DNA from: Maribacter luteus
Lineage (GTDB): Bacteria; Bacteroidota; Bacteroidia; Flavobacteriales; Flavobacteriaceae
Direction of reading: 5' to 3'
Length of the DNA: 64,000 nt
Assembly: GCF_009674825.1 (NCBI RefSeq)
Contig: NZ_WKJH01000001.1
Location: 1 to 64,000, forward strand
The position numbers and the translations under genes are program-made. The first letter of the stretch is position 1. Every line of letters starts with the position of its first letter. The notes beneath the pieces are model-generated. The model was not told the origin of the DNA and made no database searches. It was given only the letters and a program-made list of their open reading frames with translations. Positions 6,911-21,583 of the stretch are shown piece after piece.

Positions 6911-7074
6911 AAAAAAGTTAAACCCTTCTACAATCAACATTTTCTTAAAAATCCCATCTGTTAGTTCTCTTCACGTATCAAATGGTCCAATAGTGAAATG
7001 CCATGTGTTATAACATTCCTGGTTCATGGTTCCTATTACAGGAAAATAATTTGCTTTTAATAAACCAATATGGT

Positions 7075-7103
7075 GTTAACCTTTTTAACCCAATAACATT
7101 AAA
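7075..7103 (+). promoter_or_regulatory. Bipartite promoter element, site 1 (GTTAACC-N15-CATTAAA)
   Basis: GTTAACC at 7075-7081 and CATTAAA at 7097-7103, separated by 15 nt. The second box ends 25 nt before the ATG at 7129. The same two boxes with the same spacing recur six more times in this locus, including upstream of the ECF sigma gene. I read it as the -35/-10 pair of that sigma factor. Confidence 0.75.
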
Positions 7104-7128
7104 AGGAAAACAATTAAAAAATAAACAT

Positions 7129-7845
7129 ATGGACTTTTCAAATAGCTCTTTAACGACAACGCAGAGAACCAACTTTAAACACACCACAATTCTATCCCTA
7201 TCACTTTTACTGTTAGCCCTACTATTTGGGGGCCATTTAAACGCCCAAAATGATGTGTACACTTTTGATTATATCTATCAATTAGAAATTGAAAACCCTA
7301 GGGGCAATAAAACAGTTATAGACTATTATTTACCCACCAATGGAGGCTATTTCTGTACAAAAACAGAAGGCGACATGATAACTGTTTTTGACAATGCTAG
7401 TAATAAGATGTATAGCTATATGGGTCGCGACGACAAAAAAATTTTGATGACGATGCCTTTTAGCTTCAAAAGTTTATTAAAAGAATACAATGATGCAGAA
7501 AATCCAGAGGTTCATGAGTCTGCAGGCTATGGCAGGCTATTAGGTCATGATTGTACATTATTTAGAATGACCAGTGATAACCTAACAAGCGAAGTGTGGG
7601 TGGCCGAAGGGGTAATCGATGGCTCTTTTGGCGAAAATTCAATGACCCCACAAATGTTCGGCTACATCTTGGCAAGAAGTTTAACCCTTGATGACGATTC
7701 CCTTAAAGCCATTTATTCGGGTTTGCCCTTAAAAATCGTAACCAATAAAAAAAGGGGTAGAAGAGAAAAAATAACAACAATGACATGTATAAAGTTTGAA
7801 AGGGAAAATTTTCAAATTGTTACCTCAGAATACGAACGCCTTTAA
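7129..7845 (+). CDS. Exported DUF4412-like protein, candidate sigma-regulon member
   Basis: 238 residues from the ATG at 7129. The frame is open further upstream, but an earlier start would lie across the promoter element. The N-terminus has a polar stretch then a hydrophobic signal segment (ILSLSLLLLALLFGG) ending at AQ. The mature part (TFDYIYQLEIENPRGNKTVIDYYLP..SEVWVAEGV) resembles DUF4412-type exported proteins. The OmpA-family gene follows after 29 nt, so the two are probably one operon under site 1. Confidence 0.6.
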   Translation: MDFSNSSLTTTQRTNFKHTTILSLSLLLLALLFGGHLNAQNDVYTFDYIYQLEIENPRGNKTVIDYYLPTNGGYFCTKTEGDMITVFDNASNKMYSYMGRDDKKILMTMPFSFKSLLKEYNDAENPEVHESAGYGRLLGHDCTLFRMTSDNLTSEVWVAEGVIDGSFGENSMTPQMFGYILARSLTLDDDSLKAIYSGLPLKIVTNKKRGRREKITTMTCIKFERENFQIVTSEYERL

Positions 7846-7874
7846 AGCGTAACTGTTTAATCTAAAAAAATATA

Positions 7875-9371
7875 ATGATGAAGCATTCCTATAAATCAAA
7901 GTTAGTACTAGCGCTCCTAGGATTTCTATTCTTAAACTCCTTACATTCCCAAGAAAAAAGGTTAAAACGGCCTTCCGGCCGCGTAGGAATCCATAGTGTG
8001 GATACATTCGTCAGGGAATCTTTTGACCTATATGATAAAGTTTACATCTACGATAATTATGCACAAGAAGGAAAACCATTGGAAGAAGATGATTATGAAG
8101 CCTTGATCGACACGGTTGAAGATGCACAAAGTGTTCTATCGAGTGCCCCAGATGCAGTGGTCGATATCAAAGGTGCCAGTATTCTTAAACAAGGAAAGGC
8201 AACATTACAAATGAACCGCGCAAAAAAAGCCTTGAAATACAGCATAAAAACGGCTAAAAAGTTATTGTCAGAAAAGAATGGAAAAGACGGCGAAACAAAA
8301 ACTGAAGATGATATTGCCAAAAATAGTACGGGCAATACAAATAGCTCTTTAGAACAAGAAAACAATGTAACGAATGAATTGGAGATCTACAGTACCTTCG
8401 ATTTTGTCCCTGGTGACAAAATACTAATGACAGATGATTTTTCATTGGATAATATGGGCGATTTTCCATCCAAATGGAATACTAATGGCACTGGTGAACT
8501 AGCTATGATTAACAATGAAAAGTGGTTTAAGCTGGCCGGGAAATCCATTTACATCCCCGATTTACCTTCCAATTTACCCAAAGACTATACTGTAGAGTTT
8601 GACATGCTTACCGTAGTTGATAAAAAAACAAGTTCACAGGCAAAGTTGGAAATATGGCTTGAGGATAATAATATGTTCAACCCCTCAAAAAATATGGCCA
8701 TGGTAGAAATACCCCTTTGTTTATTTATCAGCATAGGTTTTATAGTCGATAATAAGATTGATGGTAACCGTGTCATCAGAAATACAGTTGAAAAAGACAT
8801 AAGGAACATACTTTTACAAAAAAACCATGTTTCCATTGCCGTTAACGGTAAAAGGTTTAGAATGTGGATCAATGAAAATAAGGTGGTTGACGTACCTAGA
8901 CTGGTTCCCGACAACATTGTATCATTTAAATTGCACCCAAGGAACATTCGTGATGGTATTGATAACGTTTTTATTAATAATATTAAAATTGCCCAAGGCG
9001 GTCTGGACTTACGAAACCAATTATTGGAAAATGGTCGGTTTTCCACTACTGGCATATTGTTCAACTCGGGCTCGGACCAAATCAAGCCCGAATCCTTCGG
9101 CGTATTAAAACAGGTTGCAGAAACCTTGCAACAAGAAGCAACCTTAAACCTGAAGATCATCGGCCATACCGATGCAGATGGCAATGATAGCCTTAACTTG
9201 ACCCTGTCGGAAAAACGTGCATCATCCGTTAAGAACGCCTTGATTACACAATTCAATATTCAAAGTAATAGATTACAAACTGAGGGAAAAGGAGAAACAG
9301 AGCCCGTTGACAACAACACCACGACCGAAGGCAAGACCAACAATAGGCGCGTGGAATTCGTAAAAATATAG
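7875..9371 (+). CDS. OmpA-family envelope protein with LamG-like middle domain
   Basis: 498 residues: signal peptide (residues ~8-26), a helical region to about residue 120, a Ser/Asn/Glu linker, a LamG/3-keto-disaccharide-hydrolase-like beta domain (LMTDDFSLDNMGDFPSKWN onwards) and a C-terminal OmpA domain. The OmpA part shows F-N-SGSDQIKPESF, IIGHTDADGNDSLN--LSE-RA and NNRRVEF, including the Asp/Arg that bind peptidoglycan diaminopimelate. It probably tethers the outer membrane or a surface domain to the wall. Co-directional with the 7129 gene, 29 nt apart. Confidence 0.85.
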   Translation: MMKHSYKSKLVLALLGFLFLNSLHSQEKRLKRPSGRVGIHSVDTFVRESFDLYDKVYIYDNYAQEGKPLEEDDYEALIDTVEDAQSVLSSAPDAVVDIKGASILKQGKATLQMNRAKKALKYSIKTAKKLLSEKNGKDGETKTEDDIAKNSTGNTNSSLEQENNVTNELEIYSTFDFVPGDKILMTDDFSLDNMGDFPSKWNTNGTGELAMINNEKWFKLAGKSIYIPDLPSNLPKDYTVEFDMLTVVDKKTSSQAKLEIWLEDNNMFNPSKNMAMVEIPLCLFISIGFIVDNKIDGNRVIRNTVEKDIRNILLQKNHVSIAVNGKRFRMWINENKVVDVPRLVPDNIVSFKLHPRNIRDGIDNVFINNIKIAQGGLDLRNQLLENGRFSTTGILFNSGSDQIKPESFGVLKQVAETLQQEATLNLKIIGHTDADGNDSLNLTLSEKRASSVKNALITQFNIQSNRLQTEGKGETEPVDNNTTTEGKTNNRRVEFVKI

Positions 9372-9466
9372 TAAATACAATACTTTAATTATCAATTGTT
9401 TACATTTTTAAACTAAATTTATAATCCATGCCTTTCTAAAATCAAAGCATTATCAATTATTCATAC

Positions 9467-10300
9467 ATGTTCACTACCTATCCCGTCACAAAGAAACTAC
9501 AACCTTATGTCTCGTTCTATTATGACTTAAATTGGAAGCGTAAAGACTATGAAAATGATATCCGGGAGACCGTTTTACCAAGTGGCAAAGGCTTTATGGT
9601 CTTTCAATACAAGGGAAGGTTTAGGGGCATGATGGATACTAAAGAACAATTTGTGCCGAAATACTATACCATTGGCCAACAGACTAAAACCTATACGCTT
9701 TTCTCCGATCATGAAACCACGGCCTTGTCCGGAGTAGCTTTTAAACCCACCGGCCTTTACCATATGTTCGGGCAGAACATGGCATTACTAGCCAATTCCC
9801 CTATGGATTCAAAAACTGTTCTTGGTTCTGACCTAACCCATTTTGAAATCTCCTATGAAAAGGAATCAAGGACCGAAATGAAGGTGAATATGGTGGAAGG
9901 ATTACTTTTAAACCAATTGGAAGATAAAAAATACGTCCCCAGTTTTATAGACATTGCCATCGACATGATGAATCGTTCATTGGGGTGCGAGCCAATTACT
10001 AAAATCACCAAAAAACTAAATGTAAGTGAACGCTATTTTCAAAAGAAGTTTAAAGAAATGGTAGGTATTACACCTTCTGAATACAACCGTATCGTCCGCT
10101 TCAACAACTTATTCTCTCAATTCGATGCTGAAGACCAAAACAACTATAAAACCTTAGTAGCACTTTTCAACTACTATGACCTAGCGCATTTCAGTAAGGA
10201 TTTTAAAAAATATTGCGGTGAGACCCCAAAAAAGTTTCATTTGGATAAATTCAAATTTGTAAAAGAAGCCTTTATAAAGAACCCAATATTCCTAAAGTAA
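9467..10300 (+). CDS. AraC-family transcriptional regulator (DUF6597-type sensor domain)
   Basis: 277 residues. The N-terminal ~130 residues (YPVTKKLQPYVSFYY..VLPSGKGFMVFQY..FKPTGLYHMFG) match the DUF6597 domain placed before AraC HTHs in Bacteroidota. The C-terminal ~100 residues contain two helix-turn-helix motifs: ITKITKKLNVSERYFQKKFK and ALFNYYDLAHFSKDFKKYCG, ending with the usual TPKKF. It has no GTTAACC element, so it is probably expressed separately from its neighbours. Confidence 0.88.
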   Translation: MFTTYPVTKKLQPYVSFYYDLNWKRKDYENDIRETVLPSGKGFMVFQYKGRFRGMMDTKEQFVPKYYTIGQQTKTYTLFSDHETTALSGVAFKPTGLYHMFGQNMALLANSPMDSKTVLGSDLTHFEISYEKESRTEMKVNMVEGLLLNQLEDKKYVPSFIDIAIDMMNRSLGCEPITKITKKLNVSERYFQKKFKEMVGITPSEYNRIVRFNNLFSQFDAEDQNNYKTLVALFNYYDLAHFSKDFKKYCGETPKKFHLDKFKFVKEAFIKNPIFLK

Positions 10301-10323
10301 TTAAACTCCATTTACTTAAATAT

Positions 10324-10364
10324 CCCGTTTTTTTTATCCACTTTAACAAATAGGACGGGTTTTT
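10324..10364 (+). terminator. Weak terminator after the AraC-type gene
   Basis: Five-base inverted repeat CCCGT..ACGGG with a long T/A-rich loop, followed by TTTTT. The long loop makes it weak. Confidence 0.4.
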
Positions 10365-10465
10365 ACAATTTTGCAGCCAATCATTTTGTATCTTTTTTAC
10401 TTTCAAATTTCCCCCAAAGTATTGTTCCCCCACCAATTAAACAGGCAATAAAGTTTAAACACTGT

Positions 10466-10494
10466 GTTAACCTAGACCTTTTATGCCCATTAAA
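10466..10494 (+). promoter_or_regulatory. Bipartite promoter element, site 2 (GTTAACC-N15-CATTAAA)
   Basis: GTTAACC at 10466-10472 and CATTAAA at 10488-10494 with a 15-nt spacer, 30 nt before the ATG at 10525. Same element as at 7075. Confidence 0.75.
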
Positions 10495-10524
10495 TTAATA
10501 TAAGAAACCATTAATACACAAATT

Positions 10525-11097
10525 ATGAAAACAAAACTATTCATTACCATCGCATTTTTATCACTTCTTATGACCTCATGTATAAAGGATTACTTAGGTG
10601 ATACAGGCGGGGATAAAATAGAACTAAATTCTGAAAACTATCTTTATGATGGCGATTTGGAAAGGATTTTTTTAGAAGAACAAATTGATCGATTAACAGA
10701 TGAAATTGCCCAACTCGATGAAAATGACCCCAAAATAGAAAAACTAATTAAACAACGGGTCAACTTTAAAGACCGTTTGGCCCAAATTATAGATTTAAGT
10801 GCTGTAGGATTGGATCTTGTAATTCCGTGCGATACCCCAAATGGAAAATGTGTACCACGACTGTTGGAATACTTTGTTTTTTACAAAAATATTGAACAAG
10901 CAGTGGTTTATGTAAAAAACATAAACGGGGAGAGTATCGGGATCTCCGATAAACTAACACCGCTGCCTGAATTTAAGAATGAACTGCAATATATAAGAGT
11001 TCCGGTGGATTCCCATGCAAAGGGTATTATTATCGAGATTATTAAAAAAGACGATCAAGGCAACGAAATAACATCAACGGTCACTTTAAATAGATAG
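10525..11097 (+). CDS. Small lipoprotein of unknown function, candidate sigma-regulon member
   Basis: 190 residues with a lipobox (LLMTSC, Cys at residue 19). The mature protein has an acidic, helical coiled-coil-like stretch (residues ~45-90, IDRLTDEIAQLDENDPKIEK). After it comes a beta-rich domain with two cysteines (PCDTPNGKC). No family recognised. It lies directly downstream of promoter site 2. The TPR-CHAT protease gene follows on the same strand, but a hairpin terminator sits between them. Confidence 0.65.
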   Translation: MKTKLFITIAFLSLLMTSCIKDYLGDTGGDKIELNSENYLYDGDLERIFLEEQIDRLTDEIAQLDENDPKIEKLIKQRVNFKDRLAQIIDLSAVGLDLVIPCDTPNGKCVPRLLEYFVFYKNIEQAVVYVKNINGESIGISDKLTPLPEFKNELQYIRVPVDSHAKGIIIEIIKKDDQGNEITSTVTLNR

Positions 11098-11122
11098 TTG
11101 ACCTTATAACAATAAAATTAAC

Positions 11123-11145
11123 AAGCCTTCTTTTGAGGGCTTTTT
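11123..11145 (+). terminator. Hairpin terminator/attenuator just before the CHAT gene
   Basis: AAGCCTTC / GAGGGCTT form an eight-pair stem (one G-T) with a TTTT tetraloop, followed by TTT. It ends only about four bases before the ATG of the CHAT gene. CHAT expression from promoter site 2 would therefore need read-through. Confidence 0.7.
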
Positions 11146-11148
11146 GTA

Positions 11149-13923
11149 ATGAAGAAAGCCCTCATTTTCACAGTACTACTTTGCGGCCTGTTTTCATCAG
11201 CTCAAGATGAAAAACAAAGCACGGAAATCGTTGCCTTGAACAAAAAAGCAACTACGTTTTTTTACACCCAAAAGGACTCTGCCTATGTATATTTCAATAA
11301 AGTATACGACATAGCAAAAAAAAATAATGACTCGAAAAACCTGATTCAAACGCTGTTCAGTTTAACAGGAGTGGCCAACTACCATCGTGATATGAAAACG
11401 ATGGGTGCCAATTTGGAAAAATTGGACTCCCTTCTTGTTACGGAAAAAAAAGGACATACCAATTTTAGTTCAACCGATGACTATAATATTTACCTCTATT
11501 TTCGTGGTGCCTACCATTTTCAATTATCCGAAGATTCCGATGCCAGAAAAGCCTTTGAAGAAATTATTCTTAATGTAAACAATACGGCCGACTCTTTGCA
11601 AAGCAAAACTTTGCAAAGCCTAACTTCAGTAGCACATAGTTTTTTAGGGAAAATATACCTAAGCGAACGAAAATTTGAATTGGCCAAACAACTTTATAAC
11701 AAAAACATTAGGGAAATCCTGGCAAGTGAGGATGTTGACCAAGAAGCATTATACGGTAATTTCAACTTACTTGCAGAAGTATTGATGAACGAAAAAAAGT
11801 ATGATGAGGCCAGTACATATTGGATAAAGACCTTAAAATACAATCAACAGAAAAACAATTCGAATGCAGTGATTGCCAATTCCTTTTATGTAGCTCAAAA
11901 TTTTAATCAGTTGAACCAAAGGGATAGTGCATTATATTACCTTGAATACGCAAAATCGGTTTTAAACGACAACCCTGTTTTTTATCCAAAATACCACATA
12001 TTGAAATCCGATATTTTTGCTAAAAACGAAGAGTACGATGCTTCCCTTACCGAGCTTGAAAAGGCTGTGAACAAGATTCAAAATACCACAGGAAACACCA
12101 AAGCACTTTTTCTCGCATCGACATACATTGAAATGGGCAAGATCAATGATTTGAATGGCAACCCGGAAAAAGCTTTGTCCAATTTTAGGTATGCGGAAAA
12201 ACAATTCAAAAAAGTCGGGAACCGCTCCATTAACGAGTTAAAACTTTTAAAAAATAAGGCACATACCCTAAATGGGATTCATGAACCAAAGTACTTTTTG
12301 GCATCTTTGGAAACTGTCGATGAAGCCATTCACTTGCTGAACGATTTAAAGCCCACCTTTAAAAGTCAGCAAGACAAACTTCTATTAATCGAAGACGCAT
12401 TCCCGATTTTCGAATCAGGATTGGAGGCTATTTATATGCTACATGCATCCAAAGCAGATGATTCTTTATTAGACAAAGCTTTTTATTTCATGGAAAAAAG
12501 TAAATCAGTTCTGCTAATGGAAGCGCTACTTAACACAAAAGCAACGAAATTCGCCAACATACCCGATAATCTGTTACGGAAAGAAAGCCAACTAAAATCG
12601 GAAATCACATTCATTGAAAAACAACTCAATACTTCAAAAACAGGGAATTTTGAACTGGAAGGGGAGTTGTTCGCATTGAAGAACGACCATCTAAACCTTA
12701 TCCATAAAATTGAATCGGGTTACCCCTCCTATTACAATTTAAAATACCGAACCAAGGTCATATCACTGGAAAAGACCCAGGCATTATTGGACACGGATGA
12801 ACTTATGATTTCATTCTTCTTTGGCAATAATGACATTTACGCCATTAGCTTGGATAACAACTCAAAGAAAATAACAAGGATACCGATTGATTCGGAATTC
12901 GAGACAAAAATTAAAATGGCTTACAGGATGTTTTCCAATCCAAAATCGGATATAGTGGTTTTGGGCAAGGCCACCCATAACCTATATAAACATTTACTAG
13001 ACCCCATATTAAAGTCCGACCACCATAAAAAACTTATCATCACCACTGATGGACTTTTAAATTACATCCCTTTTGCAGCCTTGAACACCAACCCCGAGGG
13101 ATTAACTTATTTAGCCGAAAACCATGCCGTAAGTTATGTAAATTCAGCTACAATGCTTGCAGAATTGCGACAACGACAACCAAAAGAGCATACAATTTTG
13201 GCCTTTGCCCCCAGTTTTGACGGAACAGTTAACATTACCAATACAGATCGCGGAAAATTACTTCCATTGCCCAATAATAAAAAAGAGGTGGAGCAAATAT
13301 TGACTTCTTTCAATGGCAGTTCATATATCGATGAAGATGCGTCGCTCCTGAATTTTAAATCCCAACTATCCTCTTTTGGGATAGTACATTTGGCCACACA
13401 TGCCATTTTTGACGATGCAGCCCCGGAATATTCCTATTTGGCCTTTTCCCAAAAGGGTAATAAAACAGAGAATTTACTTTATGTGGCCGATCTTTATAAT
13501 TTACAAATTGATGCAGATTTGGTTACCTTAAGTGCCTGTGAAAGTGGTTTGGGCGATTTAAAACGAGGGGAAGGGTTTATGAGCTTGGCAAGAGGATTCT
13601 TTTATAGTGGGGCGGCAAGCATTGCCAGCACCTTATGGAAAATCAACGATGCCAGTTCCGCTACCTTAATGAGTGGTTTTTACAAAAATCTTTCCAGGGG
13701 AGATGCCAAGGATCTGGCCCTTCAACGAGCTCAGATAGAATTTTTGAATACTAATCGTGATAATGGCTTATCACATCCTTACTATTGGTCTGGTTTTGTG
13801 ATTTCAGGTAGCACTGTACCCTTGGCAACCTCCTATAATTGGGTTTATATTATAATTGGTACCATCATATTATTGACCGGTGGGTTTTACTACTTCATAG
13901 CGAGAAAAAAAAGAAGGGCTTAA
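11149..13923 (+). CDS. Secreted, membrane-anchored TPR-CHAT (caspase-like) protease
   Basis: 924 residues. Order: signal peptide (MKKALIFTVLLCGLFSSAQ), about ten helical TPR-like repeats to residue ~470, a coiled-coil region, then a CHAT domain (~640-890), a C-terminal TM (WVYIIIGTIILLTGGFYYF, ~898-916) and a basic tail RKKRRA. The caspase-type dyad is visible: His751 in IVHLATH and Cys797 in LVTLSACESGLG, followed by GEGFMSLARGFFYSGA and STLWKIND. Signal peptide plus positive tail places TPRs and protease in the periplasm. CHAT domains are caspase/separase relatives. The gene converges on the anti-sigma gene with overlapping stop codons. I infer it is the protease that triggers the neighbouring sigma factor. 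Confidence 0.88.
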   Translation: MKKALIFTVLLCGLFSSAQDEKQSTEIVALNKKATTFFYTQKDSAYVYFNKVYDIAKKNNDSKNLIQTLFSLTGVANYHRDMKTMGANLEKLDSLLVTEKKGHTNFSSTDDYNIYLYFRGAYHFQLSEDSDARKAFEEIILNVNNTADSLQSKTLQSLTSVAHSFLGKIYLSERKFELAKQLYNKNIREILASEDVDQEALYGNFNLLAEVLMNEKKYDEASTYWIKTLKYNQQKNNSNAVIANSFYVAQNFNQLNQRDSALYYLEYAKSVLNDNPVFYPKYHILKSDIFAKNEEYDASLTELEKAVNKIQNTTGNTKALFLASTYIEMGKINDLNGNPEKALSNFRYAEKQFKKVGNRSINELKLLKNKAHTLNGIHEPKYFLASLETVDEAIHLLNDLKPTFKSQQDKLLLIEDAFPIFESGLEAIYMLHASKADDSLLDKAFYFMEKSKSVLLMEALLNTKATKFANIPDNLLRKESQLKSEITFIEKQLNTSKTGNFELEGELFALKNDHLNLIHKIESGYPSYYNLKYRTKVISLEKTQALLDTDELMISFFFGNNDIYAISLDNNSKKITRIPIDSEFETKIKMAYRMFSNPKSDIVVLGKATHNLYKHLLDPILKSDHHKKLIITTDGLLNYIPFAALNTNPEGLTYLAENHAVSYVNSATMLAELRQRQPKEHTILAFAPSFDGTVNITNTDRGKLLPLPNNKKEVEQILTSFNGSSYIDEDASLLNFKSQLSSFGIVHLATHAIFDDAAPEYSYLAFSQKGNKTENLLYVADLYNLQIDADLVTLSACESGLGDLKRGEGFMSLARGFFYSGAASIASTLWKINDASSATLMSGFYKNLSRGDAKDLALQRAQIEFLNTNRDNGLSHPYYWSGFVISGSTVPLATSYNWVYIIIGTIILLTGGFYYFIARKKRRA

Positions 13924-14654
13924 TCCAACTCTTTTAGTAATGCTTCAGCTTTTTCCTTTTTATAATCGAAATTTTCGATGAGCCTTTTTAAAGTAGCTAT
14001 AGCATTTTCCTCATCTTTACTTTTAAGATAGGCCAAGGCAAGGTACCAATGGGCTTCTGCCTTAAATTCCCTGCCGTCTGCAATAACTCTTTTCAATACT
14101 TCAATGGCCTCTTTGTCCTTTCCTAAATTTAAATAAGATTGCGCTAAATAAAAGTCCACTTGAGCCGTTTCCCCTTTCGTTTTCAAATCTAAAAACGCAG
14201 CGACTGCCGTTTTATGGTCATTGGCCTCATAGGATGAAAAAGCGTGCCTTTCCAAGGATTGGTTACTATCACTTCTAGTAATCGTATAAACGGTATTGGG
14301 ATACGTTTCAAAATTCGAAGCGTATAATGCATCATAATCGGGTTTGGAAAAAGTGCTATAGGCCATCCATCCCAAAGCAATCAAAAGAGCGAAGGATGCG
14401 GCCACCGACCAAAACTTGAAATTGGTTTTAGTATTGGGTTTGGTATTATTACTCTTGATTTCATTTTCAAAACCGGCCAGTTTTTGCTTTAAGTTTTCGT
14501 TTTGTTTCTTTTTGATAACACGCTTTAGATTGTTTTCAAATTCGAATTGTGCTTTAAAATCCGGATCTTTTTCCAACAATTCATTAAAAAGCTTTTGCCC
14601 ATCCTTTGAGAGTTGGTTTGCAAAATATTGATATAATAAAAGTTCCTTATCCAT
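13920..14654 (-). CDS. Putative anti-sigma factor: cytoplasmic helical domain, one TM, periplasmic TPRs
   Basis: 244 residues from the ATG at 14654, two bases after the sigma stop; a TTG at 14660 in the same frame is less likely. Residues ~1-75 are charged and helical (LYQYFANQLSKDGQKLFNEL), like the N-terminal domains of Bacteroidota anti-sigma proteins. A TM follows (FWSVAASFALLIALGWMAY, ~81-100), then two to three TPR units (AFSSYEANDHKTAVAAFL, YLAQSYLNLGKDKEAIEVLK, YLALAYLKSKDEENAIATLK) that would be periplasmic. Immediate downstream partner of the ECF sigma gene, which supports an anti-sigma role by the usual operon logic. The catalogued zinc anti-sigma motif is absent. Confidence 0.7.
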   Translation of the reverse strand: MDKELLLYQYFANQLSKDGQKLFNELLEKDPDFKAQFEFENNLKRVIKKKQNENLKQKLAGFENEIKSNNTKPNTKTNFKFWSVAASFALLIALGWMAYSTFSKPDYDALYASNFETYPNTVYTITRSDSNQSLERHAFSSYEANDHKTAVAAFLDLKTKGETAQVDFYLAQSYLNLGKDKEAIEVLKRVIADGREFKAEAHWYLALAYLKSKDEENAIATLKRLIENFDYKKEKAEALLKELD

Positions 14655-14656
14655 AA

Positions 14657-15229
14657 TCAATCGGGATTATTAGCCTGTATACGTTCCCGCAATGTTTTCA
14701 TACAACGGGATTTAGCCGCTTTCACAACGTTTTCACTATTGTAATCGCGAGCCTCCATAATTTCCTGAATCGTATAGCCTTGGTAATAAAAGAGGGTCAA
14801 TAACTCTTGGCATTTTTGCCCTAGTCCCCCAAAATGTTTTTTCAATAATACCTGCTCTGGTGTCAACTCCTGTTCTTCCATTTCAAAACTCTCCACTAGT
14901 TCATCCTCTTTCCCCACTAATGTTAGGTCAAATTTTGAGCTTACCGTTTTTTTATTTTTCTTCATGCGTTCAAAAATCAAGTATTTACCAATACCGAAAA
15001 GATAAGTGGCAATACTACTGGTAAAGCGCTCTACTTTCCCGTTCATCACATTGTCATAAAAAATGACATAGGCATCTTGATAAATATCTATATTTTCCTC
15101 ATCCGACAAGTGGTACCTCCGTGCAAAATTCAGGAATTTTTCACGGTTATCTTCGTAAACCTGTTTCAACGCCATGTCCGAGCCTTGTCTTAAATCCTCG
15201 AGCGTAATTTCGGTTTTTGCTTCTTTCAC
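14657..15229 (-). CDS. ECF-type RNA polymerase sigma factor
   Basis: 190 residues as read from a GTG at 15229. Region sigma2 spans about 20-90 (IDIYQDAYVIFYDNVMNG, YLFGIGKYLIFERMKK). After an acidic linker, sigma4 spans ~130-182 (CQELLTLFYYQGYTIQEIME..ENVVKAAKSRCMKTLRE). No sigma3, hence ECF class. The start is uncertain: the GTG directly abuts the CATTAAA box of its own promoter element, so transcripts from it would begin inside this reading frame. ATG codon 19 (15175) is the next candidate. Followed at once by the putative anti-sigma gene. It probably directs RNA polymerase to the seven GTTAACC-N15-CATWAAA sites. Confidence 0.88.
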   Translation of the reverse strand: MKEAKTEITLEDLRQGSDMALKQVYEDNREKFLNFARRYHLSDEENIDIYQDAYVIFYDNVMNGKVERFTSSIATYLFGIGKYLIFERMKKNKKTVSSKFDLTLVGKEDELVESFEMEEQELTPEQVLLKKHFGGLGQKCQELLTLFYYQGYTIQEIMEARDYNSENVVKAAKSRCMKTLRERIQANNPD

Positions 15230-15258
15230 TTTAATGTAATAGGAAAATTAAGGTTAAC
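15230..15258 (-). promoter_or_regulatory. Bipartite promoter element, site 3, upstream of the sigma gene itself
   Basis: On the minus strand GTTAACC occupies 15258-15252 and CATTAAA 15236-15230, again with a 15-nt spacer. Presence upstream of the sigma gene suggests autoregulation. CATTAAA ends one base before the GTG at 15229. Confidence 0.7.
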
Positions 15259-15404
15259 GTTCTTGATGGCTAAATTTAGTCTTTTTCATTTTTTTAATCC
15301 TCTAAATTATAGAAAACTAGCCTAAACACAAGTAATGTAAGATTTAGCCTACCATTTTATTATTTCTAATGTTATCTACTTTATTTCATTAAAAAATAGA
15401 AGAT

Positions 15405-15433
15405 GTTAACCTTTTACTTCTTGGCTCATTAAA
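15405..15433 (+). promoter_or_regulatory. Bipartite promoter element, site 4 (GTTAACC-N15-CATTAAA)
   Basis: GTTAACC at 15405-15411 and CATTAAA at 15427-15433, 15-nt spacer, 35 nt before the ATG at 15469. Confidence 0.78.
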
Positions 15434-15468
15434 GGATAAGAATTTGTAAAAAAATTAAATCTATTATT

Positions 15469-16608
15469 ATGCAAAAAAGGAAGTATTACAATCCAGTTTT
15501 CATCTTCTCCATGTTATTATTAATAGTTTCATCTTGCAATCCTGAAGACGGTGAAGATGGCGCTATGGGAGCACAAGGGGAACAAGGAATACAGGGTGAA
15601 CAAGGACCTGCTGGCGATGACGCAACCTTAACAACACCTGCTGCATATGGCACATGGGAGGTTATTAGTGAAGTTGGTTCTGATGTAGCAAAATATGTTT
15701 ATATAAATGAAGATAACACCCTAGAAATTTTATCAGAAGATCAATTGGGTTTTAAAAGAGCAGAAAGAACAAACGTTACTGTTTCCGTAAATCAAATAAT
15801 AACAAATGATTTATATGGTAGTATTGGCATATTTGGGATAAATAATTATGAGGTTAGCGATGATATTTTAACCATTACAAGGTCTAATGATAGTGACCCT
15901 ATTATAATGCAACGTTCTACCACAGTACCAGCACCGTCTAATTGGATTAATGAACTTACAGTTTTAGACGAAGGAAATACAGCTTGGGACAGGGATGTTG
16001 ATATTGCTTTTGATGGCACCTATTTATTGGGTTTAAATTCTAACAGCTATAATATTGAACAAATTAATCCTATTGATTTTAATGTAGAAGGAATTATCCC
16101 TACAACCCATTCAGCCTATGCCGTAGAAATTGAAAAGTCAGATGCAGCAGATAAACAGCTTTTTCAAAGTAGTAATGGAAGTCAAATTTTTCATTCTTAC
16201 ATATATTCTTCCAATACTTTTAATTATACCTCTTTAGACTTAGGGGCTTGGATATATGGTATAGCTTCTATCGTACCAGGAGAATTATGGGCGGCTAGCG
16301 GAAGTGAAAAGACATTATATCACTATTGGGCCCATGAACCAATATCACCGGGAGAAATTCTTGGAAATATAACATTGGACTTTCAACCTCGTGGGTTAGA
16401 CTATCGAGATGGCTTTTTATATGTTACAGAAGGTAATAGGATACATAAATGCCAAACTTCTCCAGAATTCAAAGCCATCGAATCTTATGAATTAAGAAGA
16501 CATAATGTAACAGGTATTACCTACGACGGCACTAATTTTTGGTTGGCTGCTACAAGTTGGAATGATTATGATACCCAAAAACTAATAAAAGTAGACTTAA
16601 CCTTATAA
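15469..16608 (+). CDS. Collagen-like lipoprotein with C-terminal propeller-like domain
   Basis: 379 residues. Lipobox VSSC (Cys23), then eight Gly-X-Y triplets (GEDGAMGAQGEQGIQGEQG..GDD), a short beta domain (~55-150) and a C-terminal ~220 residues of strand repeats (DRDVDIAFDGTYLLGL.., GITYDGTNFWLAATSW) like a small beta-propeller. The Gly-X-Y segment is nearly the same as those in the lipoproteins at 18447 and 19156, pointing to a shared module. Transcribed away from the divergent sigma gene, with its own copy of the promoter element. Confidence 0.75.
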   Translation: MQKRKYYNPVFIFSMLLLIVSSCNPEDGEDGAMGAQGEQGIQGEQGPAGDDATLTTPAAYGTWEVISEVGSDVAKYVYINEDNTLEILSEDQLGFKRAERTNVTVSVNQIITNDLYGSIGIFGINNYEVSDDILTITRSNDSDPIIMQRSTTVPAPSNWINELTVLDEGNTAWDRDVDIAFDGTYLLGLNSNSYNIEQINPIDFNVEGIIPTTHSAYAVEIEKSDAADKQLFQSSNGSQIFHSYIYSSNTFNYTSLDLGAWIYGIASIVPGELWAASGSEKTLYHYWAHEPISPGEILGNITLDFQPRGLDYRDGFLYVTEGNRIHKCQTSPEFKAIESYELRRHNVTGITYDGTNFWLAATSWNDYDTQKLIKVDLTL

Positions 16609-16686
16609 TAATAACAATTTCCACATTTTTAAACCTGTCATCTTTTATAGTTGGGCAGGCTTTTCTTTATAAAAATTCTACATCAT

Positions 16687-16715
16687 GTTAACCTTTTAAA
16701 AAGTACAACATAAAA
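16687..16715 (+). promoter_or_regulatory. Bipartite promoter element, site 5 (GTTAACC-N15-CATAAAA)
   Basis: GTTAACC at 16687-16693 and CATAAAA at 16709-16715, 15-nt spacer, 27 nt before the ATG at 16743. The second box differs by one base (A for T) from sites 1-4. Confidence 0.72.
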
Positions 16716-16742
16716 GGAAAAGAATCTTATAAAACCATACTT

Positions 16743-17108
16743 ATGAAAACAAAAGCAACTTTATTAATCATATGTGCATTCGGCCTTTTCCCAACATGTC
16801 ATGCACAATCGAAAACAAAGCAAGATTCAAGCGCACAAATGAACTTATTGGACGAACAAACAAAAATGTTCAGTGGCATATTCAAACTAGCAGGGGCCGG
16901 AGAAGAGAACCCTTTGGCCGGAGCTCAAAATTACTTAGAACTAATTGAAAAAATGGATGCTCCGGAAGAACAAAAACAACAACTTAGGGATATGTACAAC
17001 GTCTATGACAGTAGTCTCGACCCTAAAAAGAAAGACTCTTTGAAGTTAGCAGTAGACAAGATGTTGAATAATGCCATGGAGAAAACCAAGAACGACCCCC
17101 AACAATAG
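16743..17108 (+). CDS. Small exported protein of unknown function
   Basis: 121 residues with a signal peptide (LLIICAFGLFPTCHAQ). The mature ~100 residues are Lys/Glu/Gln-rich and helical (MDAPEEQKQQLRDMYNVYDS..), without recognisable family. The cysteine before HAQ could also be read as a degenerate lipobox, but SPI cleavage after AQ fits better. It is preceded by promoter site 5 and followed after 31 nt by the propeller lipoprotein gene, probably one operon. Confidence 0.6.
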   Translation: MKTKATLLIICAFGLFPTCHAQSKTKQDSSAQMNLLDEQTKMFSGIFKLAGAGEENPLAGAQNYLELIEKMDAPEEQKQQLRDMYNVYDSSLDPKKKDSLKLAVDKMLNNAMEKTKNDPQQ

Positions 17109-17139
17109 AAAGCATTATTAACCTAAAATACTTTAGACA

Positions 17140-18327
17140 ATGAAGACCAATAAATCACTCTTGGGAATACTTATAGTGCTTATTGTTTCAATAAGCTGTA
17201 AAAAAGACGATGATAATAGTTTTGATGAAATAGTGGAGCCTACCAACAACATCGTAGGAAGTCTATGGATAAATAACAATAATGTCTTTACGGAATTGGA
17301 TTTAAAGGACAATCAGCAAATCAACACCTTCACTACCTTGTCTTCATTTCATTGTAATGAATTTAATGGCACATTCATATGCACCCAAGGGGAATACACG
17401 GGAACAAAAACAGTACAGCGAAAAGGTTCTTTCAACGGAGATCTCATGTGGTCCAAAGATTATGTAAAAGATAGTGAAAGGTATTTCCAAATCAATGCGA
17501 CGGCAATACATCAAAATTCGATTCTACTTAGTTATAGGATAGTCAATGCAACAACCTACACCTCCACTTATCATTTAGAAGCCTTGGAGCTTGACAACGG
17601 GGACGTCATTTGGAGCATTGAACTCGGTAATGAGGTAAAGAAGTTCACACCTTACAAAAACAAAATAATCACCGAATTGAGCGTAGGCTCTAGTACCGTG
17701 GAACTTTTGAGCATAAATCCGGATAATGGCCATATTGACACAAGAATACCTTTCACCGATAGAATCTCAAAATTAATTGGCGGTGCCTCCTCAATATTGA
17801 TAATGACTTGGAGTAATAGTATTGTTTCTATGGATGCCGAATTGAATGTGAATTGGACCTTTAACACCGGGAGTCCCAATATTCTAGGAGGTTATGAAAT
17901 TGGAAACCAATTTATTTTTTACTCTCGGGACCAGACCGTTTATAGCATTGATAAAAGTGAAGGTGACCTTATTTGGAATCACACCTATACAGGAAAATTC
18001 CCATTGGCCATAGATATATCCAATGATACGGTTTTCATTAGCCATAAAGAGGTGGGGGAATCAAACATTGTAACTAAAACCCTTGATATTTTTACCGGTG
18101 AGGAACTGGATTCCTATTCATACATGACTGCTGAAGAATGGAAAACCTCTGCAACAAAATATTACTTCTTTAACAATCACCTATTACTCTTCAACATCGT
18201 ACCTGATGACAACAAAGCAAATATCGCCTTGTTGAATCTTTCAGATAAAACCCTGCTATGGGAACGGGAATTGGACCAAATAGCTTATCCCCATTTAATA
18301 ATCACTCCAACGGGGTATTATCAATAG
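17140..18327 (+). CDS. PQQ-like beta-propeller lipoprotein
   Basis: 395 residues. Lipobox VSISC (Cys21) followed by acidic residues KKDDDN, a combination often seen in surface-exposed lipoproteins of Bacteroidota. The remainder has repeated propeller blades of the PQQ/quinoprotein type (GDLMWSKDYV.., NGDVIWSIELG.., EGDLIWNHTYTG.., DKTLLWERELD). Probably binds a ligand or scaffolds other envelope proteins; no catalytic residues visible. Second gene of the unit under promoter site 5. Confidence 0.75.
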   Translation: MKTNKSLLGILIVLIVSISCKKDDDNSFDEIVEPTNNIVGSLWINNNNVFTELDLKDNQQINTFTTLSSFHCNEFNGTFICTQGEYTGTKTVQRKGSFNGDLMWSKDYVKDSERYFQINATAIHQNSILLSYRIVNATTYTSTYHLEALELDNGDVIWSIELGNEVKKFTPYKNKIITELSVGSSTVELLSINPDNGHIDTRIPFTDRISKLIGGASSILIMTWSNSIVSMDAELNVNWTFNTGSPNILGGYEIGNQFIFYSRDQTVYSIDKSEGDLIWNHTYTGKFPLAIDISNDTVFISHKEVGESNIVTKTLDIFTGEELDSYSYMTAEEWKTSATKYYFFNNHLLLFNIVPDDNKANIALLNLSDKTLLWERELDQIAYPHLIITPTGYYQ

Positions 18328-18384
18328 GCTAACTATTCTTCAATTTATGTTGGGACCTAAACTTCTGTTTTTTTCCATTCCAAT

Positions 18385-18413
18385 GTTAACCTTTCCATTC
18401 TTTTACCATAAAA
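18385..18413 (+). promoter_or_regulatory. Bipartite promoter element, site 6 (GTTAACC-N15-CATAAAA)
   Basis: GTTAACC at 18385-18391 and CATAAAA at 18407-18413, 15-nt spacer, 33 nt before the ATG at 18447. Confidence 0.75.
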
Positions 18414-18446
18414 GAGCATTAAAAATCATATTATAAAAATTAAATT

Positions 18447-19067
18447 ATGAAACAATCATTAAAATTATTTGGATTTGCAATAATGGCTTTAAGCTTAACC
18501 CTTTCCTCTTGTGGCAAAGATGGCGAAGATGGTGAGGATGGTGCAATGGGATTACAAGGGGAACAAGGAATTGCTGGTATTGATGGCACTAATGGTCAAG
18601 ACGGCGCTGACGGAGCGAATGGTACCGATGGAGAAGATGGTAATGCGAATGTTTCTGCTTTCAAATATGATATTACCGAAGCAAGTGGAATAAGCCATCA
18701 ACTAAATAATACGACCCCTGCAAGTTTTGTGGAAGATGGGGCAGTGCTTTCATACGTAAGAGCTGGTGATACGTGGTACTATGTACCTAATCAACGTATT
18801 TTTACCAATGGTTTTGCTCTTATTGATATTGGTAGTGAATTTGTTCCAAATGGAAACACCTCTTATTATTTCAAATTAAATTTTTTAAGAGACGGTGAGC
18901 CTATAATAATAGGCGCTGGAGATTTAGATGAACTTCGTTTGGTAGTAATGTCACCATCTAATACAGGAAAATCTTCTAAATACAATACCCTAGATGCACT
19001 TTACGAAAAAGGAATAGACCCAACAGACTATTACCAAGTAATGAAGCATTTTAACTTAAAACACTAG
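18447..19067 (+). CDS. Collagen-like lipoprotein, paralogue A
   Basis: 206 residues. Lipobox LSSC (Cys22), then about fifteen Gly-X-Y triplets (GEDGEDGAMGLQGEQGIAG.. to GEDGNANV) and a ~130-residue beta-rich C-terminal domain ending in NTGKSSKYNTLDALYEKG..YQVMKHFNL. The Gly-X-Y stretch lacks proline, so any trimeric collagen helix would depend on charged X/Y residues. Close paralogue of the next gene; both carry their own promoter element, so the duplication included the upstream region. Confidence 0.78.
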   Translation: MKQSLKLFGFAIMALSLTLSSCGKDGEDGEDGAMGLQGEQGIAGIDGTNGQDGADGANGTDGEDGNANVSAFKYDITEASGISHQLNNTTPASFVEDGAVLSYVRAGDTWYYVPNQRIFTNGFALIDIGSEFVPNGNTSYYFKLNFLRDGEPIIIGAGDLDELRLVVMSPSNTGKSSKYNTLDALYEKGIDPTDYYQVMKHFNLKH

Positions 19068-19094
19068 GGAGTACCATCCAAATCCTATACTTGT

Positions 19095-19123
19095 GTTAAC
19101 CTTTTACATCAGTCTACATTAAA
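19095..19123 (+). promoter_or_regulatory. Bipartite promoter element, site 7 (GTTAACC-N15-CATTAAA)
   Basis: GTTAACC at 19095-19101 and CATTAAA at 19117-19123, 15-nt spacer, 32 nt before the ATG at 19156. Confidence 0.78.
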
Positions 19124-19155
19124 CATTAAATAATCACTTAAAAAATATTTTAATT

Positions 19156-19749
19156 ATGAAAACATCAATGAAACTATTTGGATTAGTAATTATGGCTTTT
19201 AGCCTTGTATTAACCTCTTGCGATGGGGAAGATGGGGAAGATGGAGCAATGGGTCTACAAGGAGAGCAAGGAATTGCCGGAGTTGACGGGGAAGATGGGG
19301 AAAATGGGGAAAATGGTAATGCGAATGTAATTGCATCTTCATGGACAGTAATTAACTTTCCTAATAGTTGGGATGCTACAAATGAAGCTAGATTTGAAAT
19401 CTCTGATTCTAGTATTACACAAGACGTAATAGATTCTTATGCTTTATTAAGCTTTATAAGATTCACTGGGTCAAATACTTCCGCAGTATCAACTCCATTT
19501 ATAAGTTTAGCAAGCAGGTATGAAATTCATGATGCAATGTCTATTGGAGAGTATGTAGCATTTGCCATAGTAAATGATATAGGAGCCCAGCCAGAACCAC
19601 CCACTAATCATGAGGTTAGGTATGTATTAATTGCCGCCACTAACCTAACGGGGAAAAGTGATGCGCGTTCTTTAGAAAATATGCTAGAAATTGGTATAAA
19701 AACAAGTAATTACAGAGATGTAATGGACTATTTAGGATTAGAATATTAA
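19156..19749 (+). CDS. Collagen-like lipoprotein, paralogue B
   Basis: 197 residues. Lipobox LTSC (Cys22), about eleven Gly-X-Y triplets (GEDGEDGAMGLQGEQGIAG.. then GEDGENGENG), then a beta-rich domain. Its end (TGKSDARSLENMLEIG..YRDVMDYLGLEY) aligns with paralogue A, while the middle is diverged. Ends at a strong terminator shared with the convergent lipB gene. Confidence 0.78.
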   Translation: MKTSMKLFGLVIMAFSLVLTSCDGEDGEDGAMGLQGEQGIAGVDGEDGENGENGNANVIASSWTVINFPNSWDATNEARFEISDSSITQDVIDSYALLSFIRFTGSNTSAVSTPFISLASRYEIHDAMSIGEYVAFAIVNDIGAQPEPPTNHEVRYVLIAATNLTGKSDARSLENMLEIGIKTSNYRDVMDYLGLEY

Positions 19750-19766
19750 GCTTATATTTAAATATA

Positions 19767-19795
19767 AAACCGAGGTCTACACCTCGGTTTTTTGT
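19767..19795 (+). terminator. Bidirectional terminator between the lipoprotein gene and lipB
   Basis: AAACCGAGGT / ACCTCGGTTT ten-pair stem with a four-base loop, followed by TTTTTT on the plus strand and A-rich on the other side. The last codons and TAG stop of lipB lie inside the hairpin. Confidence 0.88.
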
Positions 19796-20493
19796 TTTAT
19801 GATTTCCGCTTCAAACAAATCTGAGAAATGTTTGAGCAATTTTTCCTTAACCTCATCCATCGAAATTTCTTTTTGACCCAACTCCACATTCAAGGAAGTT
19901 ACGGCTTTACCTTTTATACCACATGGAATCATTAAATCAAAATATCCCAAATCTGCATTTACGTTCAAAGCAAAACCATGCATGGTAACCCAACGGCTGG
20001 CACGCACGCCCATCGCGCATATTTTACGTGCGAAAGGTGTACCTACATCTAACCAAACCCCGGTTTCCCCTTTAGATCGCTCTGCTTTCAACCCATATTC
20101 AGCCAATGTTAAAATTACCATTTCCTCTAAGAATCGAAGGTATTTATGAATATCGGTAAAGAAATTGTCCAGATCTAAAATAGGATACCCAACAATCTGA
20201 CCTGGTCCATGATAGGTAATATCCCCACCTCTATTGATCTTATAGAATTTTGCCCCTTTTTCATCCAACACTTTTTCATCGACCAGAAGATTTGCCATAT
20301 CTCCGCTTTTACCCAAAGTATATACATGAGGGTGCTCAACAAACAGAAAATGGTTAGGTGTCGGTAACAAGGAGCCTTCCCTCCTATTCTTGATTTTTAT
20401 ATCAAGCGTATTTTGAAATAGTTCCTCTTGATAGTCCCAAGTTTCCTTATAATCCTTAAGACCTAAATCCTGTAGCTCAATCTTCTTGTTCAT
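19777..20493 (-). CDS. lipB: Octanoyl-[ACP]:protein N-octanoyltransferase (lipoate biosynthesis)
   Basis: 238 residues from the ATG at 20493; the GTG at 20499 sits inside a -10-like box and is unlikely. Transfers octanoyl from ACP to lipoyl domains. Family signatures: RGGDITYHGPGQ, the catalytic lysine block ARKICAMGVRASRWVTMHGFALNVN and the catalytic cysteine in MIPCGI. TATCTTTG on the minus strand (20506-20499) is a good TANNTTTG -10 box, implying a very short or absent leader. The C-terminus ends within the terminator hairpin. Confidence 0.96.
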   Translation of the reverse strand: MNKKIELQDLGLKDYKETWDYQEELFQNTLDIKIKNRREGSLLPTPNHFLFVEHPHVYTLGKSGDMANLLVDEKVLDEKGAKFYKINRGGDITYHGPGQIVGYPILDLDNFFTDIHKYLRFLEEMVILTLAEYGLKAERSKGETGVWLDVGTPFARKICAMGVRASRWVTMHGFALNVNADLGYFDLMIPCGIKGKAVTSLNVELGQKEISMDEVKEKLLKHFSDLFEAEIIKQKTEV

Positions 20494-20524
20494 AAGCACA
20501 AAGATACGAAGTACAATGGCTAAA

Positions 20525-21262
20525 TCATTCCTCTAATAGCACTTCAATATTCAAGGTATCCGGATTTTTCATATAAGACAGAAAATCAACCTCATAATAC
20601 AAGGTCTTGCCATCCGCACTAAAGGTAGCGGCTTCAACTGATGCCGATTTAACACGTTTTGGAAAATGGTATTTTAGTTTATAGGTTGAACCGGACAGGA
20701 ACATTTCTGCCCCGGCCAAACTATCAATACTTTGTTTTAACAATGCACTATCTACGACCCGTGCCGTTCTTTTAAATGAATTGGCTTTAAAAGCATAATC
20801 TATCTCGGTAGCCTGGTTACTTAAATTCGAAGTGGGACTTTGTTTTTTTGACCCAGGACCTAAACTACTGGCATCCTGAAAAGCTTTGAAGATATCCGAA
20901 ATCTCATTCAAATCATCAAAATCCCGGTAAAGATCAAACTTCATCTCATTGGTTTCCGGGTTCATGACCATATGCATTTCAAAAGGTTCCAACTTTTTTA
21001 AATTGGCTTGGTTTTCTGCTGAAAGCGTAGCGATACTATCTTTCTTTTCCTCGAGAAACGATTTGAAAGAAATTACTGAATCAATAGCCTTCTCCCCGTT
21101 CTTGTTCAATTCCTCGCCCATCATTCCCATCATTTCAGAACCGTCAAAATTTATCGATATCTTCCCGGAACCATCTTCCTTTACATAAATTTCCTCAGTA
21201 AAATTGCATGCTGAAACGAGGGCCAAAACCAGAAGCAATGACCAAAAACGAAATTTGAACAT
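20525..21262 (-). CDS. Lipoprotein of unknown function
   Basis: 245 residues with lipobox LVSAC (Cys19) after MFKFRFWSLLLVLALVS. The mature protein has a beta-strand start (TEEIYVKEDGSGKISINFDGS), a Met-rich helix (EMMGMMGEEL) and Ser/Glu-rich helical segments. It lies 9 nt downstream of the YqaE-type gene and 31 nt upstream of lipB, so the three may share transcription. No family recognised. Confidence 0.65.
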   Translation of the reverse strand: MFKFRFWSLLLVLALVSACNFTEEIYVKEDGSGKISINFDGSEMMGMMGEELNKNGEKAIDSVISFKSFLEEKKDSIATLSAENQANLKKLEPFEMHMVMNPETNEMKFDLYRDFDDLNEISDIFKAFQDASSLGPGSKKQSPTSNLSNQATEIDYAFKANSFKRTARVVDSALLKQSIDSLAGAEMFLSGSTYKLKYHFPKRVKSASVEAATFSADGKTLYYEVDFLSYMKNPDTLNIEVLLEE

Positions 21263-21271
21263 AATTATGTC

Positions 21272-21427
21272 TTAATTAGGATTATTTAGAATGACCAAAG
21301 CCGCTATGACCCCAGGAACCCATCCACAGAAAGTCAAAAGTAAAACAATTAAGAACGAACCACAACCTTTACCGATAACGGATAAGGGCGGAAACAAAAT
21401 GGCCAAAAGCACACGAATTAAACTCAT
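21272..21427 (-). CDS. YqaE/Pmp3-family small membrane protein
   Basis: 51 residues from the ATG at 21427; the longer frame begins with a polar stretch atypical of the family. Two hydrophobic helices (LIRVLLAILFPPLSVIG and SFLIVLLLTFCGWVPGVIAAL) with the PPL and WVPG-I-A signatures of UPF0057/Pmp3 proteolipids, which in other organisms are linked to membrane potential and salt or cold stress. Confidence 0.88.
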   Translation of the reverse strand: MSLIRVLLAILFPPLSVIGKGCGSFLIVLLLTFCGWVPGVIAALVILNNPN

Positions 21428-21533
21428 AGATGTAGGATTTTTTTGATTGATGTACTTGTATGACGCAAAATTACCCATTTTGTTACATCAAAACCACCCT
21501 ATTTACTCAAAATCAATATTCCTAACCAATGGA

Positions 21534-21564
21534 TTGATAGATTTACCTAGACTACCTATATTTG
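21534..21564 (+). promoter_or_regulatory. Bacteroidota-type promoter of lysS
   Basis: TTG at 21534-21536 and TATATTTG (TANNTTTG consensus) at 21557-21564, 20 nt apart, with the ATG 19 nt beyond, giving a short leader. Confidence 0.65.
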
Positions 21565-21583
21565 CAGCCTTAATAACAACTTT

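Follow-up and report, generated by a model that had tools for sequence, protein, structure and literature searches.

What reads a two-part motif that recurs around a sigma factor gene, and what follows from one copy ending on the start codon of that gene? These questions are raised by the first 64,000 nt of contig NZ_WKJH01000001.1 of Maribacter luteus (assembly GCF_009674825.1; the whole stretch is called the window), where the motif GTTAACC-N15-CATWAAA accompanies the genes of an extracytoplasmic function (ECF) sigma factor, a proposed anti-sigma factor and a tetratricopeptide repeat (TPR)-CHAT protein (Table 1). Judging from its distribution in genomes, the motif is very probably a promoter that would be bound and read by this sigma factor. 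The pattern of sites, its link to the sigma factor, a conserved gene module and the start-codon geometry were established here.

The window was searched by pattern and held exactly seven matches, all with the 15-nt spacer and all at the positions reported in an earlier reading of the sequence alone (hereafter, the sequence-only reading), compared with a mean of 0.01 in 100 dinucleotide shuffles, none of which reached seven. The scan of the whole genome that the sequence-only reading had proposed (4,651,603 bases, 30 contigs) returned the exact motif only at the same seven window sites, and the reversed-pattern control returned none. With one mismatch allowed, only 2 extra sites were found in the genome versus 23 for the control, which gives no evidence for a wider regulon in this genome. 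When the spacer was left free between 5 and 30 nt, there were 11 matches and also 11 in the control; seven of the 11 had the 15-nt spacer and the remaining four had spacers of 7, 13, 14, and 27 nt. A chance origin of the seven sites, already considered very unlikely, was ruled out by the shuffles and the whole-genome scan. Six sites precede start codons of exported proteins or lipoproteins by 25, 30, 35, 27, 33, and 32 nt, within the range described before, and the seventh does abut the sigma gene, its last base adjoining the GTG. Two of the seven sites sit at the genes of the sigma/anti-sigma/TPR-CHAT system itself, a point that, like the anti-sigma and TPR-CHAT partners, had escaped the sequence-only reading. 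An open reading frame (ORF) with an ATG at 7003 would enclose the site at 7075, and orthologues in two Maribacter genomes support 7129 as the true start.

The sigma factor was assigned to the ECF group, which has sigma regions 2 and 4 only, from a TIGR02937 match above its cutoff; the Pfam matches for the two regions were below theirs. AAC, as in ECF -35 boxes, is present in GTTAACC at 7/7 sites. The -10 box is CATWAAA at 7/7 sites and not of the CGT type, which belongs to the first, classical ECF definition and was dropped from later ones, as a review describes (PMC8103513). Among 12 genomes of the genus, 4 carried the sigma gene (E < 1e-30), and 23 exact sites (5, 5, 6, and 7) were found in exactly those 4, with 22 of them within 15 kb of the sigma gene. 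The 8 genomes without the gene, 5 of which are at least 90% complete, held no exact site, and the reversed control gave 4 sites overall. Of 199 genomes of the family, 14 were counted as sigma-bearing by an E cutoff of 1e-50 (47-99% identity, with the genome of the window among them); 41 of their 54 exact sites were within 15 kb of the sigma gene, a density of 98 per Mb versus 0.22 elsewhere.

The boxes are also better conserved than the spacers. Five of the seven sites were compared with those of Maribacter polysiphoniae and M. aquimaris, whose sigma factors are 91% and 89% identical to that of the window, and 136/140 box positions were identical versus 113/150 spacer positions. The sites at 18385 and 19095 were omitted because the orthology of their collagen-like genes is uncertain, and their nearest counterparts in loci L050 and L051 have one mismatch (CATTAAG). 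Of the 61 exact sites in 20 close loci, 12 adjoin the sigma start: the script counted 11, and L066, where it had misplaced the start, adds one. Another 43 precede, by 10-60 nt, an ATG ORF whose N-terminus is signal-like, and the other 6 have a short ORF behind them, a longer spacing, or no clear gene. Signal-like N-termini were found in 65/69 ORFs behind a site with up to one mismatch versus 146/237 other ORFs, an excess that is favoured by the choice of starts with the site in view, and lipoboxes in 38/69 versus 54/237. Twenty loci were considered for a permutation test, and the 13 distant ones in which the rule identified a site at the sigma gene as well as at a target were used; there, the sigma-site boxes were more similar to target boxes of the same locus than to those of other loci (12.3 versus 11.4; 0.74% of 5000 permutations), and in L091 an unusual GTATGAAT -10 is common to the sigma site and the targets. 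The reading of the boxes as promoters for this sigma factor is well supported by the local exact cluster, the shared presence and absence in the genus, the clustering round the sigma gene in the family, the sites before exported proteins in other species, the conserved boxes with drifting spacers, and the co-variation of sigma and target boxes.

The genes around the sigma factor were compared in 45 loci, the window and L050-L093, whose sigma factors are 36-91% identical to that of the window. The loci were picked from the best sigma matches and therefore lean to close relatives, with the closest sigma pairs about 90% identical. The anti-sigma gene is directly after the sigma gene in 45/45 loci, and the CHAT gene is convergent on it within 125 bp in 40/45, within 2 kb in two more (L055 and L073), and further off in three (L088, L090, and L093). 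In the window, the ends of the two facing genes overlap by 4 bp. In a sample of 196 genomes of the order, 28 had a relative of the anti-sigma protein (E 1e-10 or better), and these cover 15 of 72 genera. Pfam and the predicted structure give this protein a helical N-terminal domain, a single membrane helix, and a TPR domain (helices at residues 5-70 and 82-104, TPR at 136-245 in the model), and a simple hydropathy rule found a membrane-like stretch in 45/45 of the proteins. The product is, in all likelihood, the anti-sigma factor of this sigma factor. Just outside the membrane helix, at residues 122-129, the segment is nearly fixed, with the consensus YPNTVxPITRG and with N122 and R129 invariant in 42/42 aligned proteins; as a guess, it may be a candidate site for recognition or cleavage by a protease. 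Several genomes carry the sigma/anti-sigma/CHAT module twice, the second copy being more distant and having boxes that are related but not the same (L075-L080 and L092), and genome G172 has an exact site 4 kb from a second sigma gene.

For the TPR-CHAT protein, 42 sequences were aligned, leaving out L088, L090, and L093. The CHAT domain PF12770 was found in 42/42, and H747, H751, and C797, which include the His/Cys dyad of caspase-like CHAT proteins, are invariant in all of them. By the simple hydropathy rule, 38/42 have a signal-like N-terminus and 39/42 a membrane-like C-terminus, the window's protein included. The predicted structure (mean pLDDT 87.6) had Csx29 as its best fold match in the PDB (E 5e-18); the first four matches were Csx29 or other Craspase TPR-CHAT chains, the fifth was DdvA, and separases came next, with identities of 9-14% and TM-scores below 0.6. 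Searches by sequence gave less: phmmer with the CHAT part against the sequences of solved structures, Csx29 included, found nothing up to E 1, a profile of the whole TPR-CHAT protein gave TPR-type chains among the best 60 of 228 matches, and PADLOC had no match for CHAT. An exported, membrane-anchored protease that cuts the anti-sigma factor is mildly favoured as the role of this protein. Alternatively, CHAT could be an effector or a scaffold, with the anti-sigma factor released by other proteases or by ligand binding, an account that seems less likely. It is helped by the topology of CHAT, which is a prediction, and by the 5/45 loci in which CHAT does not adjoin the anti-sigma gene, but the adjacency in the other 40, the invariant His/Cys residues, the Csx29-like fold, and the precedent of Csx29, Csx30, and a sigma factor (PMC10028731) favour the protease.

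The site at the sigma gene differs from the others in its distance to the start codon. In 25 loci (the window and L050-L073), 100 sites with up to one mismatch were counted, and in 18 of them the box runs right up to a sigma start codon (offset 0 or -1 at 17/18, and the same in L066 once its ATG start is used), whereas among the 73 non-sigma sites followed by an ORF of at least 60 codons within 150 nt, the distance was 16-45 nt in 65 and 20-36 nt in 61. At the sigma gene, the sequence takes the form CATTAAATG, CATTAAAGTG or something very similar. A GTT[ATG]AC box is present 26-29 nt before an in-frame sigma start in 35/45 loci; all other distances from 8 to 69 nt combined gave 22 hits versus 36. 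The 35 are not independent events, the loci being related, and the two that rest on the 26-nt distance (L087 and L089) are the weakest. The geometry holds at 36-40% sigma identity with differing boxes (e.g., GTTTACC and CACTAA).

In 19 close loci, the sole start codon common to all is the one at the box; an in-frame stop directly precedes it in 10/19, and 8/19 have no other start codon in the first 30 sigma codons. An internal start that would rescue a short sigma factor from the overlapping promoter was ruled out, as no start beyond the first is common to all 19. The first 25 sigma codons, compared with L050 and L051 (21 identical, 1 synonymous, and 3 not, in each), were too small a set and were left unused. 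Transcripts usually start 5-9 nt after a -10 box. On that basis, sigma-directed transcripts would begin after the sigma start codon and could not encode the whole sigma factor, and the anti-sigma ATG is 2 nt after the sigma stop. The chances are roughly balanced that the feedback is negative and not the usual positive loop.

Ordinary positive autoregulation, with the site driving the sigma gene through a very short start distance or leaderless translation, seems rather unlikely. Most ECF operons are positively autoregulated according to a review (PMC8103513), a feature of the classical ECF definition, and the box at the sigma gene, although it overlaps the start codon, matches the target boxes exactly; the -10 box, however, reaches the start codon or shares one base with it, which leaves no room for a transcript start between them, alternative starts are scarce in the 19 close loci, and leaderless mRNAs are given as 5.5% in Flavobacterium psychrophilum (PMC9723704). 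The proposal of the sequence-only reading that the motif is the sigma factor's own promoter can thus be kept for reading by the neighbouring ECF sigma factor, which has genomic support, and is doubtful where it implies ordinary positive autoregulation.

Transcripts for the sigma gene may come from elsewhere. TAnnTT[TAC]G was found just upstream of 18/35 sigma sites (shuffle mean 0.8), and with one optional extra T (TAnnTT(T)HG) of 22/35, the window included (shuffle mean 1.2); the primary sigma factor has TAnnTTTG, at -12 to -5, as its -7 consensus (PMC9723704). In most such loci, a primary transcript would then start a few nt upstream of GTTAACC, which would place the ECF site in its leader. 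Literature matches on autoregulation overlapping a start codon, judged by title and abstract, included nothing relevant among those listed. The boxes are very improbable as a bipartite operator for another DNA-binding protein, for example, the AraC-type regulator whose gene Pfam places at 9467, inside the cluster: GTTAAC is palindromic by itself, but the two unlike boxes keep a fixed 15-nt distance, lie mostly 20-36 nt before starts (the 61 of 73 above), and track the presence of the sigma factor in the genus.

Taken as a whole, the following explanation, from the ECF promoter to the self-limiting sigma site, is considered likely, with cleavage and feedback as its conjectural steps. GTTAACC(TTTT) would be the -35 and CATWAAA the -10 element read by the ECF sigma factor, which would be held by a membrane anti-sigma factor with a periplasmic TPR domain. 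An envelope signal is probably sensed by the exported, membrane-anchored TPR-CHAT protease, which would then cleave the anti-sigma factor, and the freed sigma factor would activate the six transcription units nearby that encode lipoproteins and exported proteins and include the CHAT unit. The seventh site overlaps the sigma start within the leader of a probable primary-sigma promoter, and transcription from it would fail to raise sigma, probably limiting it instead through an mRNA for the anti-sigma factor only or through a blocked primary promoter. The sigma-directed mRNA would still carry the anti-sigma gene, and its translation is an assumption. More tentatively, the sigma factor may limit itself through this promoter over its own start codon, with an mRNA that encodes the anti-sigma factor but not sigma. 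This homeostat would be part of a circuit that is related to that of Craspase but widespread and located at the envelope, where a caspase-like protease in the periplasm would set an ECF sigma factor free. If so, more active sigma factor would lead to more inhibitor and less new sigma factor.

A number of observations speak against this explanation or parts of it. There were 30 exact sites in the 185 family genomes that were not counted as sigma-bearing, and the sigma-bearing genomes had 13 far from the sigma gene, so some occurrences of the motif are due to chance or to other uses. Near the sigma gene, 2 of the 14 sigma-bearing genomes (G171 and G091) lack an exact site, and none was found in G177, whose sigma factor (49% identity) falls just outside the cutoff (E 1.4e-49). 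Of the 100 sites in the 25 loci, 9 are not followed within 150 nt by an ORF of 60 codons. The promoter assignment draws on genomics, and the predicted transcript start at the sigma site on the usual -10 distance. In 10/45 loci (L067, L069-L071, L075, L080, L082, and L084-L086), no such box was found at the sigma gene though sigma, anti-sigma, and CHAT are present. Perfect TAnnTTTG was found in 5/35 loci (shuffle mean 0.4, maximum 4), and the window's TAAATTTAG is a variant of it. The N-terminal domain of the anti-sigma protein matched no Pfam anti-sigma family and no ASDI domain was recognised in it, and its fold search gave only TPR structures among the 50 matches listed. The activity, export, and cut site of CHAT are predictions, and its likeness to Csx29 is one of fold (14% identity, TM-scores 0.37 to 0.45).

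Sites beyond the main sigma locus were followed in L094-L106, where 14 exact sites (the 13 far sites of the family and one of genome G202) lie in 13 loci. On visual inspection, 9 lie before an ORF of the signal-like or lipoprotein kind and 1 (the first of L094) before a membrane-like ORF, and 4 (L099, L101, L104, and L106) show neither. The regulon may reach beyond the main locus in some other species. Two pairs of genomes outside the sigma-bearing set, G154/G007 and G049/G061, have near-identical exact sites, perhaps conserved coding sequence.

The features of the window are listed in Table 1. The TPR-CHAT gene is 51 nt behind the lipoprotein gene, so the site at 10466 probably drives both. 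Collagen-like (GXX) lipoproteins are repeated targets in the window (15469-19749) and in L050-L068, with copy numbers and sequences that vary by species; a literature search on such targets, by title and abstract, gave nothing relevant. Another recurrent target has a signal peptide, a short QFLKKL-like stretch, and then an E/R-rich run, and in several loci it is divergent from the sigma gene. lipB is in the same 20-kb stretch in 14/24 loci, usually with lysS (window 19777-23275, L050-L073), and this neighbourhood suggests that the chromosomal position of the module is old.

Table 1. Promoter copies, genes, and related features of the sigma/anti-sigma/TPR-CHAT locus (window coordinates)
Feature	Position	Strand	Details
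Promoter copy 1	7075..7103	+	exact motif; 25 nt to ATG 7129; counterparts in L050, L051
Exported DUF4412 protein, target	7129..7845	+	Pfam PF14371 5e-09
OmpA-domain exported protein, probable operon partner of DUF4412 gene	7875..9371	+	PF00691 1.2e-20; 29-nt gap
Promoter copy 2, before lipoprotein and TPR-CHAT genes	10466..10494	+	exact motif; 30 nt to ATG 10525
Lipoprotein, target	10525..11097	+	lipobox LMTSC; no Pfam family
TPR-CHAT protein (924 residues)	11149..13923	+	CHAT PF12770 5.7e-65; signal-like N-terminus, TPRs, C-terminal membrane helix
Proposed anti-sigma (246 residues)	13920..14660	-	directly after sigma in 45/45 loci; in-frame ATG at 14654
ECF sigma factor, GTG start at 15229	14657..15229	-	TIGR02937 48.3 bits, cutoff 42.9
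Promoter copy 3, -10 box abutting sigma start codon	15230..15258	-	exact motif; geometry kept in 35/45 loci
TAAATTTAG, possible primary-sigma -7 element upstream of sigma site	15270..15278	-	putative assignment
Promoter copy 4	15405..15433	+	exact motif; 35 nt to ATG 15469
Collagen-like lipoprotein, target	15469..16608	+	lipobox, GXX repeats; Collagen match 0.0016, below its cutoff
Promoter copy 5	16687..16715	+	exact motif; 27 nt to ATG 16743
Small exported protein, target	16743..17108	+	signal-like N-terminus
Lipoprotein with PQQ/BamB-like repeats, probable operon partner	17140..18327	+	PF13360 9e-06, below cutoff; 31-nt gap
Promoter copy 6	18385..18413	+	exact motif; 33 nt to ATG 18447
Collagen-like lipoprotein, target	18447..19067	+	PF01391 2.3e-08; lipobox
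Promoter copy 7	19095..19123	+	exact motif; 32 nt to ATG 19156
Collagen-like lipoprotein, target	19156..19749	+	PF01391 1.2e-05, just below cutoff; lipobox
QFLKKL-like target loci			L055, L058, L059, L064-L066, L070, L075, L083, L087, L088, L090, L093

A recognised class I anti-sigma factor is nearby for only 6% of the ECF sigma factors of Bacteroidetes (PMC7406223), and the locus offers a recurrent three-gene candidate with a promoter sequence and a target list. The start-codon geometry is its most surprising part and gives a specific prediction of feedback. Membrane anti-sigma factors with an outer sensor part and a proposed release by cutting are shared with RseA/DegS and RsiW, but here a caspase-like cutter is proposed and the anti-sigma domain has no Pfam match. 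The cutting enzymes of the RseA and RsiW type are of the DegS or PrsW kind. DdvA, a transmembrane anti-sigma factor of solved structure (8rw5 and 8rot), appeared at ranks 5 and 12 when the CHAT model was searched by fold but is itself the named anti-sigma factor, and its TM-scores are low (0.25-0.27). The SM6 promoters of F. psychrophilum are likewise of the ECF type and from the same family of bacteria, but are described with a CGT -10 and targets including type IX secretion system genes (PMC9723704), compared with CATWAAA and local lipoproteins or exported proteins here. In ECF54, which has CHAT, subtilase, and carboxypeptidase neighbours, a CHAT gene beside an ECF sigma gene and a proposed proteolytic control are shared; as described in PMC8999054, ECF54 has no anti-sigma factor, and the present locus, with its conserved candidate, is set apart by that description only. 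Caspase, ECF sigma, and TPR genes are reported to occur together in EACC2 systems (PMC8195603).

The closest counterpart is Craspase (type III-E CRISPR), in which Csx29 cuts Csx30, an inhibitor of an ECF-like sigma factor, and three motifs of that sigma factor are reported in the locus (PMC10028731). The TPR-CHAT protease fold, the inhibitor of an ECF-like sigma factor, and sigma motifs in the own locus are common to both, whereas here CHAT has a signal-like N-terminus and a membrane-like C-terminus, and the inhibitor is a one-pass membrane TPR protein. None of the 16 window proteins scanned with Pfam, which included the three of the module, was Cas-like (no whole-genome search for Cas7-11 was made), and neither PADLOC nor phmmer placed the CHAT protein in the Csx29 sequence family, the likeness being by fold only. 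The literature searched, open-licence papers only, gave nothing on CHAT with an ECF sigma factor and an anti-sigma factor beyond the Craspase paper, and the combination of a local regulon, a membrane TPR anti-sigma factor, and an exported CHAT protein opposite it was not found there. The association of sigma and CHAT is thus not new in kind; what is new is the variant that joins a membrane TPR anti-sigma factor, an exported CHAT protein, and a local regulon, each of a known kind (ECF regulon, protease-released anti-sigma factor, and TPR-CHAT), and that would make this locus a non-CRISPR, envelope-located counterpart of the protease-inhibitor-sigma circuit of Craspase.

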